64,000 bases of DNA, taken from positions 1 to 64,000 of the forward strand of contig JAOABH010000002.1 in the NCBI GenBank assembly GCA_026418455.1. The letters are read 5' to 3'. This DNA comes from Hydrogenothermaceae bacterium. GTDB lineage: Bacteria > Aquificota > Aquificia > Aquificales > Hydrogenothermaceae. The notes beneath the pieces were generated by a model that worked only from the letters and a program-made list of their open reading frames with translations, did not search any database and had not been told where the DNA came from. Of the stretch, positions 36,152 to 53,366 are shown one piece after another; position 1 is the stretch's first letter; each line of letters begins with the position of its first letter. A program made the position numbers and the translations under genes.

Positions 36152-37111
36152 ATGAAAAGGTTTGTATTTTTAATTTTAGTAATTGGGGTTTTTGTAGGAT
36201 TCACATACTATATATGGATTAGTATGTCTAAATTAGAAAGGGAACATTTAAAAATAGGAACTAACTTTTGGATAGGATATGAGATAATTTACCTTGCAAA
36301 AGAACTTGGATATCTTGATAATACAAAAATTGTAGAATATAACTCAAATGCTGAAGTTTTAAGAGGACTTAAAACAGGAGTTATAAACGCCGGAACTTTA
36401 ACATTGGATGAGGCTTTAAGGGGATTAAACAGAGGTATGGATTACCGTATTGTGTTGGTTTTTGATTACTCTAACGGAGCTGATTCTATCATTGCTAAAG
36501 ATTACATTAAGAAACCTGCAGATCTTATAGGCAAAAGAATAGGTGTTGAAGACTCAGCCCTTGGTAAATATATGCTTAAAAGATTTTTAGAAAAAACAGG
36601 TTTAAAGAGAGAAGATATAATAGTAGATTACCTTGAACTTAACGAACATGTAGAAGCTTTTTTGAGATCTAAAGTTGATGCCATCATAACATTCGAACCA
36701 GAAAAATCAAAAATACTCAAAAAAGAGGGTTGGGTCATTTTTTCAAGTAAAGATATACCCATGGAGATAGTAGATGTTCTTGTTGTAAAAACAGAACTTT
36801 TAGACGAAAACAGAGAAGACATAAAGAAATTGATAGACGGATACTATAAAGCTTTTGACTATTTTCAAAAAAATAAAGAACTGGCTTTTAATATGATATC
36901 AAAAAGGCAACACATCACTAAAGAAGAAGTAGAAAGAGCTTTTCAAGAAATATATCTACCCAGTAAAGAAGAAGTACTAAAGAGCATTCCCCAAATCGAA
37001 AGATCAATAGATAAAGTCTGTAACATACTTAAAGAAGAGGAGATTATAAATGAGAATTTAAACTGTAATAAAATGTTTGACAGAGAGATGTTCAAGGAGT
37101 TATACAGATGA
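36152..37111 (+). CDS. Membrane-anchored NMT1/SsuA-like substrate-binding protein
   Basis: The 319-residue protein has an N-terminal membrane anchor (about 4-24) and a type II periplasmic-binding fold: LKIGTNFWIGYEIIYLAKELGY, NSNAEVLRGLKTGVINAGTL, and IGVEDSALGKYMLKRFLEKTG. This is the aliphatic-sulfonate/nitrate/thiamine-precursor type. No ABC permease or ATPase follows; instead it overlaps the GGDEF gene by ATGA. It is therefore more likely the periplasmic sensor for that enzyme than a transporter part. The ligand is unknown. Confidence 0.8.
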   Translation: MKRFVFLILVIGVFVGFTYYIWISMSKLEREHLKIGTNFWIGYEIIYLAKELGYLDNTKIVEYNSNAEVLRGLKTGVINAGTLTLDEALRGLNRGMDYRIVLVFDYSNGADSIIAKDYIKKPADLIGKRIGVEDSALGKYMLKRFLEKTGLKREDIIVDYLELNEHVEAFLRSKVDAIITFEPEKSKILKKEGWVIFSSKDIPMEIVDVLVVKTELLDENREDIKKLIDGYYKAFDYFQKNKELAFNMISKRQHITKEEVERAFQEIYLPSKEEVLKSIPQIERSIDKVCNILKEEEIINENLNCNKMFDREMFKELYR

Positions 37112-38121
37112 TAAAAATAAGAAACTTGCTCCTTCGTTATCCTATAAAATACACATTTTTAGTAATTTTACTAATAACAGCTATACTGTCCAGTATTGTA
37201 ATAATCCTTATAGACATAAAAATATCCACTTCATCTATAAGGAGAGAAGAATTAGAGGAAAGTTTAATAATATCTGATAATATATTCCAACTATCTGAAT
37301 ATCTTTTAAACAAAGGAGATGTTTATAGTTTACAGAAAATTTTAACTACATACTCTGCTCATGCGGATATAGATGAAATTAATATAACAGACAAAGAAAA
37401 GCGAATTATTCTCTCAACAAAAAGGTCAAATATAGGTAATATAGAAAAAATACCAAACTTTGAGGGCTGTAGATATACATCAATTACTAAGATCGATTGT
37501 CATTTTACAATTGAATCTAAAGAAAATTATCATCTTATTATTAGATACGATATATCCGATTATCTTAAAGATTACGGGATAAAAATGATTAAAAAGTATA
37601 TGATTTTTCTTTTTATCTTTGCTCTCACAATTGAAATTATAAATTTGGCTTTCTTTAATTTAATAGGAGAAAAAATAGAAAAGATAGTTAGATATTTAAA
37701 GGAGATTAAATCCGGGACAAAGATAAACCCTCTCCATATCTACGGTCGAAATGAGCTTTCTATAATAGCAGACAGTATAACCGATGCATACAAAAGATTG
37801 TGGGAACTTATAAATTTAGATAGATTAACAAAAATACCAAACAGATTCTATCTGGAAAAAGAATTCTCCAAACATAAAAATCATATTTCCAAAGTAAAAT
37901 TTTTAGCAATAATTGATTTAGATAACTTTAAGGAACTTAACGACTTCTTCGGACACGATTTCGGAGATAGGGTTTTAATGGAATTTGCAAAAAAATTAGA
38001 AAATATATGTGAAGGCTACTCATATATATGTGGCAGATTAGGAGGAGATGAGTTTCTAGTTTTCGGCTGTGAAGAAGATTCTTCAAAAATAGAGAACTAT
38101 TTATGGTTTATCAGCCTATAG
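37108..38121 (+). CDS. Membrane GGDEF protein, C-terminus lost (5' part of a broken GGDEF-EAL gene)
   Basis: The 337-residue protein has membrane helices at about 15-37 and 163-186 with a periplasmic domain between, a HAMP-like stretch, and a diguanylate-cyclase domain starting LDRLTKIPNRFYLEKEF. The metal aspartate IDLDNFKELND and the motif GRLGGDEF (312-316) are intact, but the domain ends about 20 residues later at WFISL, roughly 75 residues short. No RxxD inhibitory site is seen. The next ORF continues in another frame as an EAL domain. It is probably inactive as a cyclase unless a frameshift rejoins the parts. Confidence 0.8.
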   Translation: MIKIRNLLLRYPIKYTFLVILLITAILSSIVIILIDIKISTSSIRREELEESLIISDNIFQLSEYLLNKGDVYSLQKILTTYSAHADIDEINITDKEKRIILSTKRSNIGNIEKIPNFEGCRYTSITKIDCHFTIESKENYHLIIRYDISDYLKDYGIKMIKKYMIFLFIFALTIEIINLAFFNLIGEKIEKIVRYLKEIKSGTKINPLHIYGRNELSIIADSITDAYKRLWELINLDRLTKIPNRFYLEKEFSKHKNHISKVKFLAIIDLDNFKELNDFFGHDFGDRVLMEFAKKLENICEGYSYICGRLGGDEFLVFGCEEDSSKIENYLWFISL

Positions 38122-38783
38122 TAGATTACAGAACGGGACAGATAATATCTTACGAATCTCTTGTCAGATGGAACTCAAGAAGTTTTGGACTTGTATCTCC
38201 GGGAGACTTTATACCTTACCTCGAAACAACCGGAGAAATAATAAAAGTGGGTAAATACATAATTCAAGAAGTTACTGAGGCAATACCTCTTATCAAAAAA
38301 CCTATCCATGTCAATATATCCTCAAAGCAGTTGTTTGAAAAAGATTTTGCAGATTTTGTTAATAATCTGTTAAAAGAAAAAGGTATAAATTCGGATATGT
38401 TGTATATAGAAATAACAGAAACTCAGGATATTCCAAAGGATCCTATTGTTTTTGAAAATCTTTCAAAACTCTCAAACTTCGGAATAAGGACATCTCTTGA
38501 TGACTTTGGAACAGGATACTCTAATCTCTACACTATTAGTCAGATAAAACCAAAGAGTATAAAAATAGATATATTCCTGATAAGAAATATAGATAAAGAT
38601 ACGACATCGTTGAACATAGTAAAAGCTATAAAAAATATGGCAGATGCGGTTGGACTTGAGGTAATTGCAGAAGGTGTTGAAAGTAAACAGATAGCAGATA
38701 TCCTTGACGAGATAGGGATACATATTATGCAAGGCTACTATTTTTCCAAGCCTTTAAAACTTGAAGAGATACTTAAGGGGTGA
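38103..38783 (+). CDS. EAL-domain phosphodiesterase (3' part of a broken GGDEF-EAL gene)
   Basis: The 226-residue ORF begins directly at VYQPIVDYRTGQIISYESLVRW, the first strand of an EAL domain, and runs to the end of the domain. Residues for c-di-GMP hydrolysis appear present: ESLVR (the EAL position), HVNISSKQL, IEITE, LDDFGTGYS, IKIDIF, AEGVES and QGYYFSKP. It overlaps the GGDEF ORF by 19 bases in a different frame and has no ribosome site of its own. It is therefore either translated weakly by coupling or is a relic. ATG 38103 is the only reasonable start. Confidence 0.75.
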   Translation: MVYQPIVDYRTGQIISYESLVRWNSRSFGLVSPGDFIPYLETTGEIIKVGKYIIQEVTEAIPLIKKPIHVNISSKQLFEKDFADFVNNLLKEKGINSDMLYIEITETQDIPKDPIVFENLSKLSNFGIRTSLDDFGTGYSNLYTISQIKPKSIKIDIFLIRNIDKDTTSLNIVKAIKNMADAVGLEVIAEGVESKQIADILDEIGIHIMQGYYFSKPLKLEEILKG

Positions 38784-38788
38784 TTAAG

Positions 38789-41272
38789 ATGTTAAATTTA
38801 ACGGTAGGACAGATAGTGGATAATAATCAACCTGTGGTTGATTATACAGTGAGCATGAGAGAGTGTATAGAGAAGATGATACACTACAATAAAGGATATG
38901 TTGTGATTCTAAAGTCAACAATTCCTGTAGGGATTTTGACAGAGAGGGATATTCTTAACCTCATTGGTAAAGACATAGATATGGAGAAAAGTTGCCTTGA
39001 ATACGCAACGAAGAACATAGTATCTATTCCTCCGGATAGAAATATATACTTCGCTATTAATATAATGCTTGATAATAATATCAGAAGGGTGGTTGTAGCT
39101 GACAAAAGTGGAAACTTTATTGGATCTTTGACATTAAAAGAAATACTGTTCTATCTGGAAGAGGATCACTTCAAGAAGAATATAAAACTTAAAGACATTT
39201 TACCAAAGAGAAGTCCTATAACAATCTTTCCGGATACAACCTTAGGTGATGCTGTAGAGATTATGAATAATTACAATATTGGTTCTTTACCTGTGGTAGA
39301 TAAAAACAGTTATAAACCTGTCGGTATCATAACAGAAAGAGATATCCTGAATTTAGCACTGAACTATAATCCATCTGAACCAGTCAAAAAATTTATGACT
39401 TCAAACCTGATAACGGTAGAAGATAGTATATCTGTTTATGAAGCTATAAAAATAATGGAGGAGAATAAAATAAGCAGACTGGTAATTGTAAAAGATTCAG
39501 CTATTGTTGGTATAATAAACTACAGAGATATTGTGAAATTATTGGAAGAGAACCACAAGAGTATCTTAGAAAAAAAGTTAAAACATGCAAAAGAACTTTT
39601 AGACTTACTTCCCGAGATGATGATAGAAATAGCAGATGATATAGACCAGCAGATTATAATGTGGGCTAACAAGGTAGCAAAGAGTGAGTTTGGAAACATA
39701 GTAGGGACCTCTATCTATACAATAGTACCAAAAGATTACTGGTTAGTAATATACTCAAAGCTACTACACGATAAAGTGGTAGAAAAGTATAAATTTGAAA
39801 ACAACGGAAAGACATATCAGATATCCGCAACGTATCTTCTCCTTAACAACGAGCTGGGAAAGGGTAGAATAAAAGCACTTATAACTAATATAACCAAAGA
39901 AGAAGACAATCTAAAACATATAGACAAAGAGCTTAGGACATACAAAAAGATAATAAATCACGCTGAAGATCTAATAATAATATACGAGGCAAATACAGGA
40001 AAGATAAAACTATACAACGATGCAGTTTTGAAAAAGTTAGGTTATACTTCGGATGAAATGGAAGATATGACCATATTCGATATAGTTGAAGAGGATAAAA
40101 ACGTTATTCAGGAAAATATAGAGAAGATTTTAAGGAAAAATATTGTAGTAAAAGGCAGAAGATTCTATAGGGAAGTCTATGGAGAAAAACTTCCTGTAGA
40201 GATCGTAGCAACAAGAGTTGATTTTAACTCTGTTCCTCATATTCTCATAGTTGCCAGGGATTTATCAGAAGAGATAAAACTGGAAGAAGAGATAAGAAGA
40301 AAAAATTTCCAGATGCAAAAAACAACAGAGTTTATAATAAACCTTAACAAGGCAACATCTGAAGAAGAAGCTTACAATATACTATCTTATATGCTTATAA
40401 ATGTCATTGGAGTAGATAGTTTAGTTGTGTATAAGATCAATCCATCATTAAACAGAGTTGTTGAAACTCTATACTTTGGTGAAAAGATAGAAAATTATAA
40501 GGAATGTCTAAACGGCGAGCTAAATCAATGTAAGGTTATAATCACAAACCAACCTTTTTTGGTAGAGAACCTCCGATCTTATAAATGTAGTAAATTTCAG
40601 GGGAATTACGGTTCTCATTTCTGTATAAATATCGTTTCTACAGGAAAAGTTATAGCTGTAGTAAGTATGGTATCTAAAGAAGAAAATTTCTTTACGGAAG
40701 AGAGAAAGAGATTTATAGAAAACATGATAAATGCATTTTCTCCTTTCGTATCCAATTTAAGATTAATTGAGCTAAACCGTGAACTGTCCATAAGAGATAG
40801 TTTAACCGGCTTATACAACAGAAGATTTATATACGAATATTGGGATAAGAAAGCTTCAGAATCTATGAGAAAACAAGAAAAAATAGGTGTTTTACTTATA
40901 GATGCAGATAACTTTAAGAAGATAAATGACATATACGGACATGAAATTGGAGATTTGGCACTGAAAGCGTTAGCTGAGGCAATAAAAAATTCTGTAAGAG
41001 ATATGGATATAGTAGGTGGATGGGGAGGAGAAGAGTTTGTAGTAATTTTACCATCAGTAAAAGATGATAGTGGTATAATAGCTGAGAGAATAAGAGAAAA
41101 TGTAAATAGAAAGGTTGTTTATAGTAAAGATGGAAAACCTGTAAACTTATCTGTAAGTATAGGAGGAGCTACGTATCCGGATGATGGAGAAGATTTAGAT
41201 AAGATTATATCTATAGCTGACGAAAAGTTATATATGGCAAAGAGAGAAGGCAAAAATAAAGTTATAATTTAA
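38789..41272 (+). CDS. 4xCBS-PAS-GAF-GGDEF diguanylate cyclase
   Basis: The ~827-residue protein has four CBS repeats in two Bateman pairs (about 1-260, e.g. [14 protein letters not shown] and [11 protein letters not shown]), one or two PAS domains (about 265-490; [21 protein letters not shown]), a GAF-like domain with cysteines (about 515-660), and a C-terminal GGDEF domain ([16 protein letters not shown]; motif GGWGGEEF). An RDMD inhibitory site lies five residues before the GGEEF. It should make c-di-GMP in response to adenine nucleotides and a redox or small-molecule cue; it is soluble. GTG 38780 is possible, but ATG 38789 fits the ribosome site better. Confidence 0.87.
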
Positions 41273-43328: not shown

Positions 43329-44792
43329 ATGAGAACTTCGAGTTTAACAAAGATACAGTATGCAAATATGCTATCCATAGGTATATTTTCTGTTGCGCTG
43401 GTTGTAGAGGTATACAAACATGGATTTGATTTTATCCGGATTTTAAACATTATCAACTTTTTAACGGCGTGGTATATTTTCATAAATATAAGAAAAGTCC
43501 AAGGTTTTATAAAGAGAGCCTCCCATGTAATCAAAGAAGCTGAAAGGGGCAACCTTGAAAACAGACTTGTTAGAGAGAGAGAAGGTGGGGAGCTTTTACA
43601 ACTTGCTTATGATATTAACTACTTGCTTGATCAGGTGGAAGTTTTTATGAGAGAGATAAAATCACCTATAGAGAAGGCTTCTCAGAGGAAGTACTGGAGA
43701 AAAGTGATAAGTGATGGTTTTACTGGTGTATTTAGGAATTTAGCGGAAGCGCTAAAATCACCTTTATCAGCCATAGAAAATAATGATAGATTTATAGAAA
43801 AAACATTACTCAATGAGCAGTTAGGTAAGTTGGGTGGGGGTATATCGGCAAACTTACTTATTATTAATCAAGACTTAAATAAAGTGGTAAAAGATATAGA
43901 AGAGATAAAGAAAGACAGCCAAAAAACTTCACAGATATCAAAGGAAGGTATAAAACAGGTTGACAGTATTGTTAAGGACCTTCAAGGTGTTATAGATATG
44001 ATTAACCAATCAAATAAAGTTATAGTGGCGTTAGCAGAAAAAACCACAAACATAACAGAGATAGTCAATCTCATAAAAGATATAGCGGATCAGACAAACT
44101 TACTGGCTTTAAATGCAGCAATAGAAGCTGCAAGAGCCGGAGAGATGGGAAGGGGTTTTGCGGTTGTTGCAGATGAAGTGAGGAAACTGGCTGAGAGAAC
44201 TCAGAAGGCTACAGAAGAAGTATCTAAGGTAATAGGAGAACTTCAAGATCAATCAAGAGAGACAGCCAGAGAGTCAGAAAAGATGGTTAATACGGCACAG
44301 TCAGCAACAAAAGAGATAGAAAAATTTAGAAACATCATCTCAGAATTTGAGAAATCTGCAGACTCAACTGCACAACTAGCAACAGTTATATCAGATGAAG
44401 CTTTCCTATCGGCAAGGAAACTTGACCATATAATCTTTAAAAACAAGGTCTATTCTTCTGTAATTAATGAAAATGTAGAAGAAGAGTTTAAAGATCATAC
44501 ACAGTGTGCCTTTGGAAAGTGGTATTACTCTGATCTATCTAAGAAGTTCCAAACAGTCCCTTCGTTTAAACGTATAGAAGAGCCCCACAGACAGTTCCAT
44601 GAAGTCTTACTTGATGTCGTTAAGCTTGTTCAAAGTGGAGAAGATTTACTTAAACATAAGGAGTTTGTTGTTGAGAAATTATCAAAAGCGGAAGATATAT
44701 CTCAAAATCTGTTTAAGATTTTAGATTCAATAATCGTTGAGGAACTGGAAAGTCAGAAAGATTTAAATAAGGAGGGAATAAGCCATGCATGA
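43329..44792 (+). CDS. Membrane-tethered chemoreceptor with CZB domain (Aer partner)
   Basis: The 487-residue protein has a short hydrophobic hairpin at residues about 13-57 with almost no periplasmic part, a HAMP-like linker, the signalling tip [21 protein letters not shown], and a C-terminal CZB domain ([36 protein letters not shown]). The membrane hairpin without sensor domain resembles the middle of Aer, so it likely receives the redox signal from the PAS protein upstream. Potential methylation helices are present, though no CheR or CheB lies nearby. It overlaps the next gene by eight bases. Confidence 0.87.
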
Positions 44793-45030
44793 AGAGTTTA
44801 ACCAACTTAATCAACTTATAGAGCAGATAAGAAAGATAGCAAAACAGAGTAATTTACTGGCTTTAAATGCAGCAATAGAGGCTGCAAGGGTAGGGGAGGT
44901 TGGAAAGGGATTCTCTGTAGTTGCAAGTGAGTTTAGAAAACTTGCCGATAACACAAATAAGATAGCCTTTGAGATAGAATCAGCTGTGGATAAGCTAAAG
45001 GAGAAGTTAGAGAACTGTAAGGAGGGGTAA
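44785..45030 (+). CDS. Stand-alone 81-residue chemoreceptor tip
   Basis: The whole protein is little more than the receptor hairpin that contacts CheA and Che[21 protein letters not shown] (about 15-34), [23 protein letters not shown], then a short coiled coil. There is no sensor, membrane segment, HAMP or methylation helix. It is open, has its own ggaggg ribosome site and overlaps the preceding receptor gene, so it appears functional and not a relic. It may bind CheA/CheW as a competitor or structural spacer in the array. Confidence 0.8.
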
Positions 45031-45032
45031 TG

Positions 45033-45977
45033 ATGCAAGATTATGGACTTCCGGAGATACTGAAAACCGGCCAGAACGAACTCGAGATAATAGATTTTAG
45101 ATTATACGAAGACAGAGAAGAGGGTATCTACGAGTGGATACTTGGGGTCAATGTTGCCAAGGTGAGAGAAGTTTTGAGAATGCCTACCTTGACGAGGGTC
45201 CCAAATATGCCAAAAGAGATAGAAGGTATGGCAGAGATAAGGGGAGAACTCATACCAGTTATAAGTCTTGCAAAATGGATGGGAGTTCCTGAACCCATAG
45301 AAAGGAAGAGATATCTTCTCTTTATGGAGTTTTTAAGGGAGAAAGTAGGAGTCATTATCCACAGAGCTAACAGAATAAGAAGGATATCCTGGCAGGATAT
45401 AAAAAAAGCTCCGGATGTTTTAAATAGTAGATTAAACGGAAGGATTACAGGAGTTGTAGATGTAGAAGATGGATTGTTACTTGTCCTTGACTTTGAAGGA
45501 ATACTCAACGATATGAATCTTCTTCAGGTCTTTAATCTACCTACACAACAAGAAAAGAGAGAAGCAAGGGAAAAACTCAGGATATTAGTTGCAGAAGATT
45601 CAGCAGTTGCAAGGAAGATAATAAAAGATATTTTGGAATCCGCAGGACACGAAGTTATCTCGACAGAAAGTGGAAAACAGGCTTGGGAAAAGTTAAATCA
45701 GATGTTCCAAGAGGCAAGTGGTTATGGAAAAAATATAAGGGATTACATAGATCTGGTATTAACAGACATAGAGATGCCGGAGATGGACGGACTTACTCTT
45801 ACAAAACTGATAAAGGAAACTCCGGGATTTCTTAACTTACCTGTAATCGTAAATACAACCTTGTCAGATGAAGCAAATCAACAGAAAGCAAAGACAGTAG
45901 GTGCAGATGACTATCTTGTTAAATTTGATGCAAAACATCTACTTGAACTTGTAGAGAAGTATGGAGGTGGGCAATGA
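45033..45977 (+). CDS. cheV: CheV-type coupling protein (CheW-receiver fusion)
   Basis: The 314-residue protein joins a CheW-like domain (about 10-165; ILGVNVAKVREVLRMP, VPNMPKEIEGMAEIRGELIPVISL) to a receiver domain (about 185-310; VAEDSAVARKII, phospho-acceptor in LVLTDIEMPEMDG, NTTLSDE, VKFDAK). CheV couples receptors to CheA and dampens signalling when phosphorylated, giving adaptation. ATG 45030 and 45033 are both possible; 45033 has the better spacing from ggagg. It overlaps cheA by ATGA. Confidence 0.92.
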   Translation: MQDYGLPEILKTGQNELEIIDFRLYEDREEGIYEWILGVNVAKVREVLRMPTLTRVPNMPKEIEGMAEIRGELIPVISLAKWMGVPEPIERKRYLLFMEFLREKVGVIIHRANRIRRISWQDIKKAPDVLNSRLNGRITGVVDVEDGLLLVLDFEGILNDMNLLQVFNLPTQQEKREAREKLRILVAEDSAVARKIIKDILESAGHEVISTESGKQAWEKLNQMFQEASGYGKNIRDYIDLVLTDIEMPEMDGLTLTKLIKETPGFLNLPVIVNTTLSDEANQQKAKTVGADDYLVKFDAKHLLELVEKYGGGQ

Positions 45978-47911
45978 TACCTGATGAACTTAGAGAGATC
46001 TTCGAAGAGTTTATAGTAGAAGCAAATGAACATCTTGAAAGTTTAGAAGCGAAACTGTTGGAACTTGAGAAGGATCCAGAAAATCAAGATCTAATAAATG
46101 CTGCATTTAGAAGTATGCATACACTAAAAGGTGGAGCTGGTTTTTTAGGGTTAACGGCTATAGTAGAAACAGCCCATAAGGCAGAGGATCTACTTGGTAA
46201 GATAAAAGAGGGAAAGTTAAAGTTTAGTCATGAGATATCTGAAGCATTACTTAAAACAGTTGACTTTATCAAAGAAGCTATAAGATTCTATGAAGATGGA
46301 GAATCCGTAGAGGCACCAAAAGATCTTATAAATCACCTACTAAAACTTCAAAATGAACAACCTATTGAAGAAACTGAAAATGGCGATATAACCCTTGATA
46401 ATCTACTTGATAAATACGGACTATCAAATCTAAAAGGAAAACCCATTGAAGATATCTTAGAGGAACTTGTATTACTTCCTCCAAACAAAAGACCACAGGA
46501 GATAGTAGATTTTATAGATAAGATGATATCCTCACCTCAACCTGCTCCTGCTGATTTAGTCCAAAAACTTGAGGAAGAAACGGCTCAACAGATGCTTCAG
46601 ATAGTAGAGGAAGAGATAGTAGAAAGAAGCTTAAAAGAAGAACCACAGGAAGAGGAAGATATCAAACCTAAACAAAAAGAAGAGACAGCTAAACCGGCAG
46701 AACCTCAGAAAAAAGATGTAAAAAGAGAGGAAGAAGAGAGGGTTTTAAGGATAGATGTCCAAAAGATAGAAAATCTTATGAACTTAGTAGGAGAACTTGT
46801 CCTTGACAGAAACAGGCTTATAAGAACAGTAAATGAGATGGTTCAAAATACAGCACCAAACAAATACACAGAAGAGATAGAGTCTATAGCATCTTCCATA
46901 GATAAGATAGTAGGAGATCTTCAACTTGCGGTTATGAAAACCAGAATGCAACCTGTTAAAAGACTATTCCAAAAATTCAGCAGAGTTGTAAGAGATCTCT
47001 CGAAGGTAGTAGGAAAAGAAGTGGAGCTTATTATACAAGGTGAAGATACAGAAATGGATAAGTCCATATTAGAAAAACTTGAGGAGCCACTGGTTCATCT
47101 TGTTAGAAACTCCCTTGACCACGGACTTGAAACTCCGGAAGAGAGAAAAGTATTAGGTAAACCTCCAGTAGGAAAACTTATATTGAGAGCTTACTATCAG
47201 GGAGATAGAGTTTATCTGGAAGTAGAAGATGACGGAAGAGGTATAGACCCTGCAAAAGTTGCCCAGAAAGCCCTTGAAAAAGGACTTGTTACAAAGGAAC
47301 AACTGGAGAAAATGACAGAGAAAGATATACTAAGATTAGTATTTATACCAGGATTTTCCACAAAAGAACAGGTATCGGAGATATCAGGAAGAGGGGTAGG
47401 TATGGATGCCGTTATGAACACAGTCCTTAACTTCAGAGGAACCATAGATATATGGAGTGAAAAAGGAAAAGGAACAAAGATATCAATGGCATTCCCGCTT
47501 ACAGTTGGAATAATAAGGTCTTTACTTGTCTCTGTAAGTGGAAGGAGATTTGCCATACCTATATTCCTCGTTACAGAGATAATACCTGCAGAAACAGCTG
47601 AAGTAAAATCTCTATCAGGGAAAAATGTTTTAATACTAAGAAACCATGCTCTTCCTCTTATCAATATATACGAGATGCTTCATATACCACCTTCAAATAC
47701 CGGTTATATTATAGTATGTCTTATAGGAAACCAAAGGATAGCCTTCACTGTTGAGGATCTTTTCGGAGATGAGGAGATTGTTGTCAAACCTCTGGGTAAA
47801 ATATTCGGAGATTTACACGGCATATCCGGAGCCACAATAACCGGAGATGGGAAAATAGTCCTTATATTGGATATAGTGGAACTTTTAAAGAATAGGAATT
47901 TCAGAGTGTAA
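45974..47911 (+). CDS. cheA: Chemotaxis histidine kinase CheA
   Basis: The 645-residue protein shows the P1 phosphotransfer domain with MHTLKGGAGFLG (phospho-histidine near H49), a linker with a small helical segment (about 128-190) in place of a typical P2, the P3 dimer helices (IENLMNLVGELVLDRNRL), the P4 kinase domain (LVRNSLDHGLE, VEDDGRGIDP, GFSTKEQVSEISGRGVGMD) and the P5 CheW-like domain. It phosphorylates CheY and CheV. The weak P2 may lower CheY recruitment. All kinase motifs are intact. Confidence 0.96.
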   Translation: MIPDELREIFEEFIVEANEHLESLEAKLLELEKDPENQDLINAAFRSMHTLKGGAGFLGLTAIVETAHKAEDLLGKIKEGKLKFSHEISEALLKTVDFIKEAIRFYEDGESVEAPKDLINHLLKLQNEQPIEETENGDITLDNLLDKYGLSNLKGKPIEDILEELVLLPPNKRPQEIVDFIDKMISSPQPAPADLVQKLEEETAQQMLQIVEEEIVERSLKEEPQEEEDIKPKQKEETAKPAEPQKKDVKREEEERVLRIDVQKIENLMNLVGELVLDRNRLIRTVNEMVQNTAPNKYTEEIESIASSIDKIVGDLQLAVMKTRMQPVKRLFQKFSRVVRDLSKVVGKEVELIIQGEDTEMDKSILEKLEEPLVHLVRNSLDHGLETPEERKVLGKPPVGKLILRAYYQGDRVYLEVEDDGRGIDPAKVAQKALEKGLVTKEQLEKMTEKDILRLVFIPGFSTKEQVSEISGRGVGMDAVMNTVLNFRGTIDIWSEKGKGTKISMAFPLTVGIIRSLLVSVSGRRFAIPIFLVTEIIPAETAEVKSLSGKNVLILRNHALPLINIYEMLHIPPSNTGYIIVCLIGNQRIAFTVEDLFGDEEIVVKPLGKIFGDLHGISGATITGDGKIVLILDIVELLKNRNFRV

Positions 47912-47918
47912 GGGGGAT

Positions 47919-48392
47919 ATGATGGAACTTGTAAAATCACAGGAGAAAAAGCCGGTAATATACGGACAGGAAACAATTAAAATACATGAATTTTTAGGTG
48001 TAAAGCTTGAAGGTGAGTTTATGGGAATATCTCTGAAACATGTCCTTGAAATATCAAAAAATTTAGAAATATTTCCTGTTCCACTGACTCCGTCTTACAT
48101 AAAAGGTGTTGTAAATTTAAGAGGTGAGATACTTCCAGTAGTATCAATAAAAGAGATGATAGGAATGCCTCAACATACAGAAACCACTAGACTCATAATC
48201 CTTGAAACAAAACTTGGAAAACTTGCAGTAGAGGTTGACTCAGTCTATGGAGTAGTAAGGATAAAGGAAGACCAGCTTGAACCAAACCCTATGAACACAA
48301 TATACAGTGATTATCTCTCAAATGTAGCTCAGATTAAAGAAGGATTTATAAGTATAATAGATTTAGAAAAACTTTTCCCTGAAAGGGAGTAG
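47919..48392 (+). CDS. cheW: Chemotaxis coupling protein CheW
   Basis: The 157-residue protein has the CheW fold: FMGISLKHVLEISKNLEIFPVPLTPSYIKGVVNLRGEILPVVSI, then VEVDSVYGVVRI and FISIIDLEKLF. It bridges receptors and CheA. An N-terminal extension of about 25 residues is unusual. The start may be ATG 47919 or the adjacent ATG 47922. The stop is immediately followed by the start codon of the J-domain gene. Confidence 0.94.
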   Translation: MMELVKSQEKKPVIYGQETIKIHEFLGVKLEGEFMGISLKHVLEISKNLEIFPVPLTPSYIKGVVNLRGEILPVVSIKEMIGMPQHTETTRLIILETKLGKLAVEVDSVYGVVRIKEDQLEPNPMNTIYSDYLSNVAQIKEGFISIIDLEKLFPERE

Positions 48393-48872
48393 ATGAGTAG
48401 CCTCTTTATGAGAAAGATGGTAGAGTTTATAAGTTATAAAAGGATGGAACTTTTTCAGGGGATGTTTTATAAACTTTTTGAGAAGTATAACGGAGATTGG
48501 GATAGGTTTGTAGATGATTGGTTTGAAAAATACTCCTATATAACATTAAAAGAGTATTTTATAGAAGATACTTTTAAAGAAGATTTTGAAGATTTTTACA
48601 AAAAAAGAAAAAATGTTTTGAAGGCATACATAAAAGCTTATTGGTCTTTTTGTATGAATCCTCAAAGCAAACCGGCTCATATTAAATCCTCAATGGAGTT
48701 CTTTGGTTTAGAAAAATTAGATGAAAAAGAGTTAAAGAAGAAGTATAGGGAGATGGTAAAACAGTATCATCCGGATACTCACCCAGATAAAAAATTTGCA
48801 ACCCAGAAGATGGTAGAGATAAACCATCATTATCAGATATTAAAAGCTTTTATTAAAAAGGTTGGAGGATAA
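48393..48872 (+). CDS. J-domain protein inside the chemotaxis operon
   Basis: The 159-residue protein has an N-terminal helical part (about 1-105) that I do not recognise, and a C-terminal J domain, LDEKELKKKYREMVKQYHPD with the HPD triad at about 126-128, followed by helix III (FATQKMVEINHHYQILKAF). The HPD means it should stimulate an Hsp70 ATPase. It starts at the base after the cheW stop and precedes cheZ by one base, so it is a fixed part of the operon. It may target DnaK to receptors, the array or the flagellar switch. Confidence 0.82.
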   Translation: MSSLFMRKMVEFISYKRMELFQGMFYKLFEKYNGDWDRFVDDWFEKYSYITLKEYFIEDTFKEDFEDFYKKRKNVLKAYIKAYWSFCMNPQSKPAHIKSSMEFFGLEKLDEKELKKKYREMVKQYHPDTHPDKKFATQKMVEINHHYQILKAFIKKVGG

Positions 48873-48873
48873 C

Positions 48874-49431
48874 ATGGAAGATGTAAAAAAGATCCTATCA
48901 AGCATCCTAAACGAGGCAAAAGTACTTGAAGAGAAGATAGAACAGATAGGTGCTGCTGCAAGACGTACCGGAGAAGTGGTTGCTCCTTCTGCATCTGAAA
49001 GTCTAAGAGAAGTTATTAAATTTACAGAAGAAAGTGCCAACAAGATAATACAGCAGATAGACAAAGTAGAACAGAACTGTCACGAGATAGATAAAACAGT
49101 AGAGGAACTGTTATCCCTAAACCCTATAAACTCAATTAAAGAAAAGTTAAACTTAATAAAAGAAAAAAATCAAGAGAACATGAATATACTCATCAAAGTT
49201 TATGAGCTTTTCTCTTTCCAAGATTTATCAGCTCAACAGATAAAGGAAGTTATAAATATCCTTGAAGAGACTAAAAAACAACTTCTTGCCTTAGCTGTCA
49301 ATTCAATTGAGTCCTCTAATTTACCTCAGGAAACAAAAGAGATGGCTAAGGGTAAGGTTCACGAAATTCTCTCAGGAGATAGAATCTTCCAGGAAGATGT
49401 TGATAGACTTTTAGAAGAATTAGGACTATAA
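48874..49431 (+). CDS. cheZ: CheY-P phosphatase CheZ
   Basis: The 185-residue all-helical protein ends EDVDRLLEELGL, the CheY-binding tail of CheZ, and has the catalytic segment LFSFQDLSAQQIKEVI with the aspartate and glutamine (about D117 and Q121) in CheZ spacing (D143/Q147 of E. coli). The ORF track starts at TTG 48862; ATG 48874, five bases after ggagga, is the real start. It removes phosphate from CheY just downstream. CheZ outside Proteobacteria and Campylobacterota is less common. Confidence 0.85.
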   Translation: MEDVKKILSSILNEAKVLEEKIEQIGAAARRTGEVVAPSASESLREVIKFTEESANKIIQQIDKVEQNCHEIDKTVEELLSLNPINSIKEKLNLIKEKNQENMNILIKVYELFSFQDLSAQQIKEVINILEETKKQLLALAVNSIESSNLPQETKEMAKGKVHEILSGDRIFQEDVDRLLEELGL

Positions 49432-49443
49432 AGGAGGAAGAAG

Positions 49444-49839
49444 ATGGGATTTCCAACAAATGCAAAGATATTAACAGTAGATGATATGGCAACTATGAGA
49501 AAGATAATAAAGAGTTTACTTACACAACTTGGATATACTGATGTAGAGGAAGCAGAAAACGGAAAAGATGCACTTTATAAACTTAAACAAAACAAGTATG
49601 ACCTCGTTTTACTTGATTGGAATATGCCGGAGATGGACGGCATAACATTTCTTCAAGAGATAAGGAAAGACCCAGAACTTAAAAATATACCGGTTATAAT
49701 GGTAACTGCAGAGGCAAAAAAGGAAAATGTCCTCCTTGCAATCCAAAGCGGTGCAAACAACTACATAGTCAAGCCTTTTACAGCAGAAACATTAAAAGAG
49801 AAGATGGATAAAGTATGGCAACAGATCAATGGAGGTTAA
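49444..49839 (+). CDS. cheY: Chemotaxis response regulator CheY
   Basis: This 131-residue single receiver domain has the acidic pair VDDMATMRK, phospho-acceptor [11 protein letters not shown] (about D58), MVTAEA and VKPFTAETL. It is the flagellar switch regulator phosphorylated by CheA. It has an aaggagg ribosome site 12 bases after cheZ. Confidence 0.95.
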
Positions 49840-49844
49840 CAGCC

Positions 49845-51422
49845 TTGAAAACAATTAAATCAAAAGTTATTGTGGGCTTTATAGTTTTGCTTACAATCGG
49901 TGGTATAGCTAATTTAACATTTATAAAAAACCTAACAGATGAACTTGAGAAAAAAAACTATACAAAGTATCTGAGTATAATCTCAGATCTCGCGTTTATG
50001 GAACTCCGTGAAGCAATGAATACAGGAGACCCAGCTGTTGTAGAAAAAACTGTAGAAAGACTTAGACACAAAGATTTAAAAAGGCTTGAAGTTTATAAAT
50101 CTACAAAGATTGAGCAACTATTCAATATACCTAAAACACAGATAGATGACTCAGAGGTTGAAAAAATATTCAGAAATAACATTTCAAAGGATGTTTTTTA
50201 TCAAAGAGGAGATGATATAACTTTATACAAACCTATACCTGCCTCTTCTTCTTGCTTAGCTTGTCATACGAATGTATCCGAAGGAGAAATCCTCGGTGTT
50301 ATAAAAATAACAAAATCTTTAAAAAATGAGTATGAGTTTGTAAAAACTAGCCTCATCTATTTCTCTGGATTTGTTGTGTTAGCATCAGTTATTGGGCTTT
50401 TTGTAATAATCACATTCTTAACTATATACATTTTGAAACCTCTTTCCAATTTAAGAGATCTTTCGAAAGATCTTTCTGAAGGAGAAGGAGATCTAACAAA
50501 AAGACTTAACGTAGACAGGGAAGATGAAATTGGTGACGTTGCTAAATATATTAATAGATTTATAGAAAAAGTTCAAAACAGCATATCTCTTATAAAAGAA
50601 GAGGTCTCAACTTTATATAGAGAAACATCTCAAATATCTACTTCCTCAAATCTCATAGATGAAAATGCGGTTAAACAGTATTCTGCAGTAAATAATTTAA
50701 AATCAATTATGGATAAAGTGTTAGCAAAATCTATCGAAGCAAAAGATGTAGCAGAAACGACATATTTGACAACATCGGAAAGTATAAGTAACATTCAACC
50801 TGTATTCACAGATCTATCAGAAATAGCAAAACAGATGAATAAGACAGCTTATGAAGAAAAGCAGTTAGCGGCAGAAGTTAAAAGTATGATAGATACAACT
50901 GGTAATATTAAAAATATTCTTGAGATAATTAAATCTATTTCCGAACAGACAAACCTCTTGGCCTTAAATGCAGCAATAGAGGCAGCAAGAGCCGGAGAGA
51001 TGGGAAGAGGTTTTGCTGTTGTTGCGGAAGAAGTAAGAAAATTATCAGAGAAAACTCAAAATAGCATAGCAGAGATAGAAAAAACAATAGAGTTCGTAGT
51101 ATCTAAGATAGTTAATGTGAGCTCTAATATATTACAGAACGTTGAGAATGTTGAAGTTATAAACAATAAAATCTCTCAAATTATGGTAAAAATTGACGAT
51201 ATAAAAGTTAAATTACAGGAAATATTAGAGAAATCTAAAGTATCCTTAAACTCTTCAGAAGAGGTATTTAGAAGTATAAAAGAGGCTTCTATGGAGATAG
51301 AAGAGATATCAAAACTGGCTACTTTGACAAAAGAAGAGTCCGACACTTTGAAAGAAGTAGCAAATCAGCTTCTTAACCTAAGTAATCAACTTAATAAAGA
51401 GATATCAAAATTTAAAACTTAA
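49845..51422 (+). CDS. Chemoreceptor with a periplasmic CxxCH haem-type motif
   Basis: The 525-residue protein has membrane helices at about 8-28 and 165-190, a periplasmic sensor (about 30-162), a HAMP domain ([24 protein letters not shown]) and a signalling domain with tip [21 protein letters not shown]. The sensor contains SSCLACH with Cys137, Cys140 and His141, a covalent haem c site, in a Tll0287/DUF3365-like setting. It should sense redox, O2 or NO in the periplasm. The ORF-track start at 49815 lies inside cheY; TTG 49845, nine bases after ggagg, is the real start. Confidence 0.88.
50965..51025. repeat. 61-bp perfect repeat in receptor tip, copy 2
   Basis: Identical over 61 bases to 42070-42130. 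A third receptor (44110-44170) differs at several third positions, which shows that synonymous change in this motif is tolerated. Confidence 0.85.
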
Positions 51423-51432
51423 GGAGTTTGAG

Positions 51433-53292
51433 ATGGGATTGTTTGGTTTTGGAGGAAAGAAAGAAGAGCCCAAAAAAACAGAAGAAAAAAAATCCGCAAT
51501 AGAGATAGATGATAGATGGAATAGATACTATTTAAAAGATATCCAAGCTTCTGATGTGGGAAGTATAGTTTATATTACAAAAAACGTGGCTTATATAAAG
51601 ACATTTAAAGAAAATAAAGAACTTAAACCGGGAATGTTTCTTCATCTTGAACTAAACGGTAAAAAGTATAAAACTCAGATAGTTGATTCTTCAGAAACAG
51701 ATATAACAGCAGGATTTTTAGAAGAGTTTAATGATATAGAATTTATAAAAAAACATACAAACTTGATTCAAGAAAAAAAACCTATAAAAAAAATATCTAT
51801 AACAGCAAAAGATATAGAAAACGAAAAGATATCTTCAGATTTAATAACACTTTTCAACCTACTTACAGAGATTGAAGATCCAAATACAGATGCAATTCAT
51901 CTAAAACTTCTCTTTGATCTTTTACCACCCTTAAGAAATAAAGTTATAGAGATTGCAAATAGTGTATCAGAGGGAGCTACAGAAGAGATAAAAGATATAG
52001 AAACTGCAATTTTAAGATTAGGATTTGACAAATTAAAGAAAGTAGTAAGTGAGTACTTTGATTTATTTATCGCTAACTACAAACCCCAAATAGAGAATTT
52101 TGAAAATATGAGCCAACTTAATTTAACAAAAGTTGAAGCGTATAAAAGAGTCGCTCCGTATCTATCTTTCCAGATAAAGAGAAAAGCCGGAATAATACTT
52201 TTTCTCTTAGATGTTGTCTCTTCCGCAGCAACAATTTTTGCAAAGAAAGACGAAAATTATAAAAATATACTTAAAAACAGTGTTTATTTTTACTCCTATC
52301 CATTGCGTCAGTATGAGAGAAATATATTTGGAGAAGACTTTTTACATACAAACTATGAGTTTATCAAATCAAAAATAAAACCATTGGTAGAAGTATATGA
52401 CAGTTATAAATTAGGACATGTCTTTATGTATCCATTTCTAACAGTAGAAAAAGAGGCTTTAAATTTTTCAAATAGAAATCTAAAGAGAGCATATATCTAT
52501 TATCTCTCTTTCCTTATGGTGAACAATCTTGTATATAACGACAAAAAAAGTGGTTATATACTCTACAATAGACTCAGAAGATTTGGAATGTCGGTAAATG
52601 AAGCAGTGGATTTCTTAAACGAGATTGTGTTTACTGTAAATAAAGCTTTATCAAACATAGGAATAAAGCCATTTTTAAGGTCTCCATCTCCACCATCTTA
52701 CACATTGGATGTCACTAAAGTATTCCCTGAAACGTCGGATTTCAAAAACTTGATAGATAATTACAAAAAAATAGCTCAAGGTAAAGAGAATAGATTAGTA
52801 ATCAGAACTCAAGATATAAATTTCTCTTCACTACTCTTTTGGTATCTGACAAATGACAACAGTATAGGGCTTTCAGCCAAAACTTTTGCAGTAATTCCAG
52901 CAAGGTCTATCCAAAATCCTGATAGTTTACTTGTTGAGAACCTTTCATCTTTTGACATACTTTACTTTAAAGGTATAGATGAACTTGACCCAACTCTTTA
53001 CAGAGAGTTTTATAAACTTTGGAAAAATTTTGAAGGTGTAATAATAACAGATTTCTCTTACTATTCTTTTATGGATTATGACTCCCAGAAAATACAGCTC
53101 TTTCACATATTAAAAGACAAAAAAATAGATGCCCCACTTTTAACGGAAAACAGGAAAGCATATGAGTTTATGGTTAAATATATATTAGATGAATATACAT
53201 GGCTTACCGGTAAAACAGACTATAAAAATTTAGAAAATGTATATAAGATAATTTATAGTATGGACTCTGTGTGGACAGAAATCTTTGAATGA
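51433..53292 (+). CDS. Large protein with PilZ-like and divergent HDOD-like segments
   Basis: I do not recognise this 619-residue protein as a whole. Residues 30-105 look like a small beta barrel (GSIVYITKNVAYIKTF, LKPGMFLHLELNGKKYKTQIV), possibly a degenerate PilZ without its RxxxR motif. Residues about 130-210 resemble HDOD, with LLPPLRNKVIEIANS and IKDIETAILRLGFDKLKKVV. The remaining 400 residues are soluble alpha/beta sequence without known motifs. It starts 10 bases after the receptor gene and closes the chemosensory cluster, so a role as an output or c-di-GMP/array partner is likely from context. Confidence 0.6.
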   Translation: MGLFGFGGKKEEPKKTEEKKSAIEIDDRWNRYYLKDIQASDVGSIVYITKNVAYIKTFKENKELKPGMFLHLELNGKKYKTQIVDSSETDITAGFLEEFNDIEFIKKHTNLIQEKKPIKKISITAKDIENEKISSDLITLFNLLTEIEDPNTDAIHLKLLFDLLPPLRNKVIEIANSVSEGATEEIKDIETAILRLGFDKLKKVVSEYFDLFIANYKPQIENFENMSQLNLTKVEAYKRVAPYLSFQIKRKAGIILFLLDVVSSAATIFAKKDENYKNILKNSVYFYSYPLRQYERNIFGEDFLHTNYEFIKSKIKPLVEVYDSYKLGHVFMYPFLTVEKEALNFSNRNLKRAYIYYLSFLMVNNLVYNDKKSGYILYNRLRRFGMSVNEAVDFLNEIVFTVNKALSNIGIKPFLRSPSPPSYTLDVTKVFPETSDFKNLIDNYKKIAQGKENRLVIRTQDINFSSLLFWYLTNDNSIGLSAKTFAVIPARSIQNPDSLLVENLSSFDILYFKGIDELDPTLYREFYKLWKNFEGVIITDFSYYSFMDYDSQKIQLFHILKDKKIDAPLLTENRKAYEFMVKYILDEYTWLTGKTDYKNLENVYKIIYSMDSVWTEIFE

Positions 53293-53366
53293 TAAATCTA
53301 CTTGAAAAGAAACAGTTTATAATTTTATAATTGACAATTAAATCTAAATAGGTGTAAATAGAAAGA

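Follow-up and report, generated by a model that had tools for sequence, protein, structure and literature searches.

The window, by which we mean the whole 64,000-nucleotide stretch of Hydrogenothermaceae DNA analysed here, encodes a 619-residue protein that joins a degenerate N-terminal PilZ-like barrel, a central HDOD domain and a C-terminal part with a predicted AAA+ fold. Each part is known and the architecture is new; the literature searched, which offers limited evidence on this point, held no protein with all three parts, and the function is one that we infer. Our preferred explanation, to which we give about an even chance of being correct, is a non-enzymatic adaptor that belongs to the c-di-GMP network and serves the control of surface behaviour or motility, its gene lying secondarily in the che operon here. 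HDOD domains are common, but how they work is not established (PMC6543031); a fusion of PilZ, HDOD and a dead AAA+ domain would offer a concrete way to study what HDOD transmits. Useful natural variants exist as well, namely copies with a lost sensor site and one species in which the gene was lost along with those for flagella and chemotaxis.

Coding status and gene surroundings

The gene is a 619-codon ORF at 51433-53292 (+) with an ATG start and no internal stop, and the opposite strand has many stops in the same register. We regard the ORF as securely protein-coding, since it has homologs at 54% identity and pairs of close relatives give dN/dS values of about 0.06-0.19; purifying selection on the gene is shown by the same comparison. 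The features of the region are:

37108..41272, + strand: GGDEF, EAL and CBS-PAS-GGDEF genes, immediately 5' of the che cluster (Pfam)
45030..49839, + strand: genes for CheV-like (CheW-REC), CheA, CheW, DnaJ-domain protein, CheZ and CheY (Pfam)
49815..51422, + strand: chemoreceptor with CxxCH motif, HAMP and MCP signalling domain, upstream of the 619-aa gene (Pfam)
51421..51426, + strand: Shine-Dalgarno sequence AAGGAG, about 6 bases 5' of the ATG and overlapping the MCP stop (sequence)
51433..53292, + strand: PilZ-HDOD-(AAA+-like) protein, 619 aa (ORF; homologs; dN/dS)
53302..53331, + strand: promoter-like site TTGAAA-18-TATAAT, 3' of the 619-aa gene (scan; 11 of 12, consensus match only)

The stop of the CxxCH chemoreceptor gene is followed after 10 bases by the ATG of the 619-aa gene. 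A first-pass annotation of this DNA took the spacing to tie the protein to the receptor. The gap is real, but the sister species G014 does not share the spacing: there the receptor is absent, and the homolog begins some 12 nt downstream of cheY. Downstream, 74 bp separate the gene from the next, unrelated gene, and because of this gap and the promoter-like site within it, the earlier proposal that the gene closes the chemotaxis operon is plausible. In its own genus, the gene is presumably made together with the che operon.

Domain architecture

AlphaFold2 was run on the whole chain with a 19-row alignment and gave a model with a mean pLDDT of 87 and a pTM of 0.87, in which strands at residues 32-95 and helices up to residue 408 are followed by an alpha/beta domain at 428-619. 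When the whole model was searched with Foldseek, SadB ranked first among solved structures, ahead of AAA+ proteins and other HDOD proteins. The segments were assigned as follows:

51505..51732, + strand: PilZ-like barrel, residues 25-100, c-di-GMP motifs lost (DRWNRY, YITKNV) (AlphaFold2 strands; profile; motif table)
51805..52467, + strand: HDOD domain, residues ~125-345 (Pfam, PDB profile matches, Foldseek)
52468..52713, + strand: helical segment, residues 346-427, with conserved D370 and NRLxRxG (379-385) (AlphaFold2; conservation)
52714..53289, + strand: predicted AAA+-like domain, residues 428-619, without Walker A/B, with invariant R454, R458 and D461 (AlphaFold2, Foldseek against the PDB, motif scan)

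Pfam PF08668 (HDOD) matches residues 141-227 of the window protein with 26.1 bits against a cutoff of 22.9. Pfam also finds HDOD in 18 of the 19 homologs, the nineteenth presumably being a contig-edge fragment. The family profile matched the HDOD structures 3m1t (4.7e-6) and 3i7a (1.3e-5) in the PDB, and the predicted fold is HDOD-like and helical, with Foldseek matches to SadB, MmoQ, CJ0248, 3i7a and 3m1t. The divergent HDOD-like part and the degenerate PilZ-like barrel that the first-pass annotation had suspected are both borne out. It was wrong in part about 400 residues without known motif, a region that includes HDOD sequence and the AAA+-like fold.

The N-terminal barrel has six strands at 32-95 in the model, and the N-terminal profile of the family aligned with the two canonical PilZ proteins encoded in the same genome (hhalign, 87%, E 3.8e-6). 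Pfam PilZ matches were weak, with E-values of 0.004-0.07 in six fragment scans. The motifs RxxxR and [DN]xSxxG are both present in ten homologs and are mostly kept beyond the window's own genus and Sulfurihydrogenibium; a motif scan found them absent from the window copy and the Sulfurihydrogenibium copies. Since these copies form one supported clade in the protein tree, the simplest reading is a single loss in their ancestor, and the homolog L039 has lost the motifs separately. With the RxxxR and [DN]xSxxG residues lost, c-di-GMP binding by the window copy is unlikely; relatives with intact motifs would be expected to bind it.

The C-terminal third is predicted to adopt an AAA+ (ASCE P-loop) fold without catalytic motifs. 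Modelled alone, residues 428-619 reached a pLDDT of 93.3, and this predicted structure gave 42 Foldseek matches in the PDB at E<=0.001, nearly all of them to AAA+ proteins. The top TM-scores (0.68-0.70) belonged to the sigma54-activator domains of FlrC (0.70), ZraR, NtrC1 and VpsR; Hda had the best E-value (2e-5), and RFC and RuvB matched too. The alternating strands and helices noticed earlier in this part therefore stand as an alpha/beta domain, but a generic Rossmann fold was rejected because the matches are AAA+ proteins. Neither Walker A nor Walker B was found by motif scan in any of the 19 homologs. R454, R458 and D461 are invariant across the family at the P-loop position, which would point to a conserved contact and not to the use of ATP. 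A profile comparison of the family with the sigma54 activators of its own genome was not significant (hhalign, E 0.062, probability 0.9%), PF00158 was absent from the Pfam matches of the homologs, and no GAFTGA loop or DNA-binding domain was recognised in the protein. The AAA+ assignment is one of predicted fold, for which sequence profiles do not favour bEBP ancestry over another AAA+ clade.

A metabolic enzyme was rejected, as HDOD was the sole match above cutoff in Pfam or NCBIfam, and an NCBIfam HAD-IA match (E 0.03, one member, under cutoff) is attributed to chance. A match to a metabolic family, which the first-pass annotation had named as speaking against its description, was not found. 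Searches of viral structures and plasmids yielded nothing useful for this protein.

Distribution and gene neighbourhoods

Among the 136 Aquificota genomes searched for the family, 20 carry a copy that is intact or appears so (a few of these are split or truncated by the end of a contig), and in one further genome, G014, the copy is broken; other matches came via HDOD only. A low-sensitivity pattern scan of other phyla returned only a Sulfurihydrogenibium record. The gene neighbourhood is conserved, at most, within individual genera. The gene adjoins the che cluster in its own genus and rplU-rpmA in Sulfurihydrogenibium (g9); it follows hypD in family f5, ispD-type genes in most genomes of genus g14, and pilB (MshEN-T2SSE) and pilC, in one run, in G012.

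In the protein tree, the Hydrogenothermaceae copies of g4 (L031-L035, L046) fall with those of family f5, apart from the window clade (support 91/95), a placement that may reflect horizontal transfer or an old duplication.

Functional predictions and alternatives

We propose that the protein is a cytosolic regulatory adaptor in which the PilZ and HDOD domains precede an AAA+ part that has lost the motifs for binding and hydrolysing ATP. In most relatives PilZ would sense c-di-GMP, and this input would alter the docking of the HDOD and pseudo-AAA+ parts on a partner that we infer to control surface or motility behaviour through flagellar or pilus regulation. In its own genus and Sulfurihydrogenibium, the dead PilZ site may leave the module fixed in one state, or the input may arrive through HDOD or the partner. 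In its own genus the gene lies in the che operon, by our reading a secondary placement. The sequence and fold evidence for the three parts, the missing Walker motifs, the published motility roles of SadB and other HDOD proteins, the GGDEF and EAL genes adjoining the che cluster and the decay of the gene in G014 support the adaptor. Neighbours that vary between genera, a weak FlhA association and the AAA+ profile E-value of 0.062 count against it.

Known proteins resemble parts of this arrangement. SadB of Pseudomonas, an HDOD protein that binds c-di-GMP and acts upstream of FleQ in c-di-GMP-linked motility regulation (PMC6543031), is the top structural match, but it has an N-terminal YbaK-like domain, no PilZ and no AAA+ part, and it superposes poorly over the whole chain (TMq 0.27). 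Other HDOD proteins also alter motility (PMC11004494). The motility proteins GsmR and CJ0248 share the HDOD core, with the CJ0248 structure 1vqr among the fold matches, but PilZ or AAA+ parts are not described for them in the literature searched. PilZ proteins of the YcgR/FlgZ type share the PilZ domain, whereas in the 619-aa protein it is N-terminal, has lost the canonical motifs and is fused to HDOD and AAA+-like parts. Residues 428-619 resemble the AAA+ domains of the bEBPs FlrC, FleQ and VpsR in predicted fold; unlike these, the protein lacks Walker A/B, a recognised GAFTGA and a DNA-binding domain, and its AAA+ part is C-terminal.

A dedicated chemotaxis component, an adaptor or output joining the CheA/CheY/CheZ machinery of its own genus, is a rather unlikely alternative. 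The gene is the tightly coupled final one of the che cluster, its G014 homolog lies directly after cheY and decays with cheA and cheV, and CheA is present in 16 of the 20 genomes with an intact copy. However, CheA also occurs in 68 of the 115 genomes that lack the gene, and che genes never adjoin it outside its own genus in the loci read. CheA was not found in G034, G036, G037 and G070, and because these four genomes carry the gene, it does not appear to be a dedicated chemotaxis part. The gene is intact in the Sulfurihydrogenibium genome G037 (100% complete), and comparison with a close relative gives a dN/dS of 0.11-0.14. This genome retains FlhA and FliG, lacks both CheA and CheW, and has MCPs as fragments only; G070 retains one CheW. 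The first-pass proposal of an adaptor between chemotaxis and c-di-GMP has partial support. Relatives possess the canonical PilZ motif that is lost here, but the phylogenetic profile that the proposal called for revealed no tie to che genes, given unrelated neighbourhoods and intact copies without CheA. A recent, genus-specific recruitment to chemotaxis is possible. As species without CheA keep the gene, we consider a role in flagellar or pilus control likelier than one in chemotaxis itself, in line with the motility adaptor that we prefer.

The sister species (locus L027, G014:C26:40400-60300) bears on the flagellar side of this adaptor role. FlhA and FliG were not found in G014, which appears to have lost flagellar motility recently. 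Its che cluster is mostly broken by stops and frameshifts, with CheY and the DnaJ-domain protein still open, and its homolog, with five in-frame stops and a frameshift, is a pseudogene. Within this genus, the gene seems to have fallen out of use along with the motility genes. Since the genes lie in one run, this joint decay is suggestive and falls short of proof. Across the genomes, FlhA is present in 19 of 20 with the gene and 85 of 115 without it (Fisher p 0.03, uncorrected for kinship), a weak association. The Sulfurihydrogenibium genome G034 (99% complete) speaks against a purely flagellar role: it keeps as much of the gene as is visible and has FlhA, and FliG, CheA and CheW were not found.

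A type IV pilus regulator controlling PilB/PilC is a still less probable alternative. It would account for the G012 locus and for the g9 genomes G034 and G036, poor in flagellar and che genes, which keep the gene and an MshEN protein. Yet pil linkage was seen in G012 only, co-occurrence is uninformative because MshEN proteins are found in 130 of the 136 genomes, and G014 retains MshEN (pilus or secretion ATPase) proteins though its copy is dead.

We consider it improbable that the pseudo-AAA+ part acts as a dead subunit that enters or caps a bEBP ring to inhibit or modulate transcription: the top TM-scores, some nine strong sigma54-activator domains in the genome and the position of SadB upstream of the bEBP FleQ (PMC6543031) favour it, but Hda, RFC and RuvB match too, with Hda giving the best E-value, the sigma54-activator profile comparison was not significant, and neither GAFTGA loop nor DNA-binding domain was recognised. 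Just as doubtful is a c-di-GMP-gated pseudo-AAA+ regulator, with PilZ and HDOD parts governing a dead AAA+ subunit that docks on sigma54-activator rings, its c-di-GMP input lost and its gene captured by the che operon in this lineage; if true, it would unite in one chain the roles of SadB and FleQ, elsewhere separate proteins.

Other observations in the che region

At 37108-38783, a GGDEF ORF stops twice midway through the domain, and an EAL ORF in another frame starts 18 nt before its end; the pair looks like the remains of a GGDEF-EAL gene whose reading frame was shifted by an internal deletion. An 81-aa ORF at 44785-45030 consists of the MCP signalling tip only; the otherwise decayed che cluster of G014 has a copy that matches it at 92% identity across 66 aligned residues. 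The DnaJ-domain protein gene at 48393-48872, between cheW and cheZ, is open in both species.
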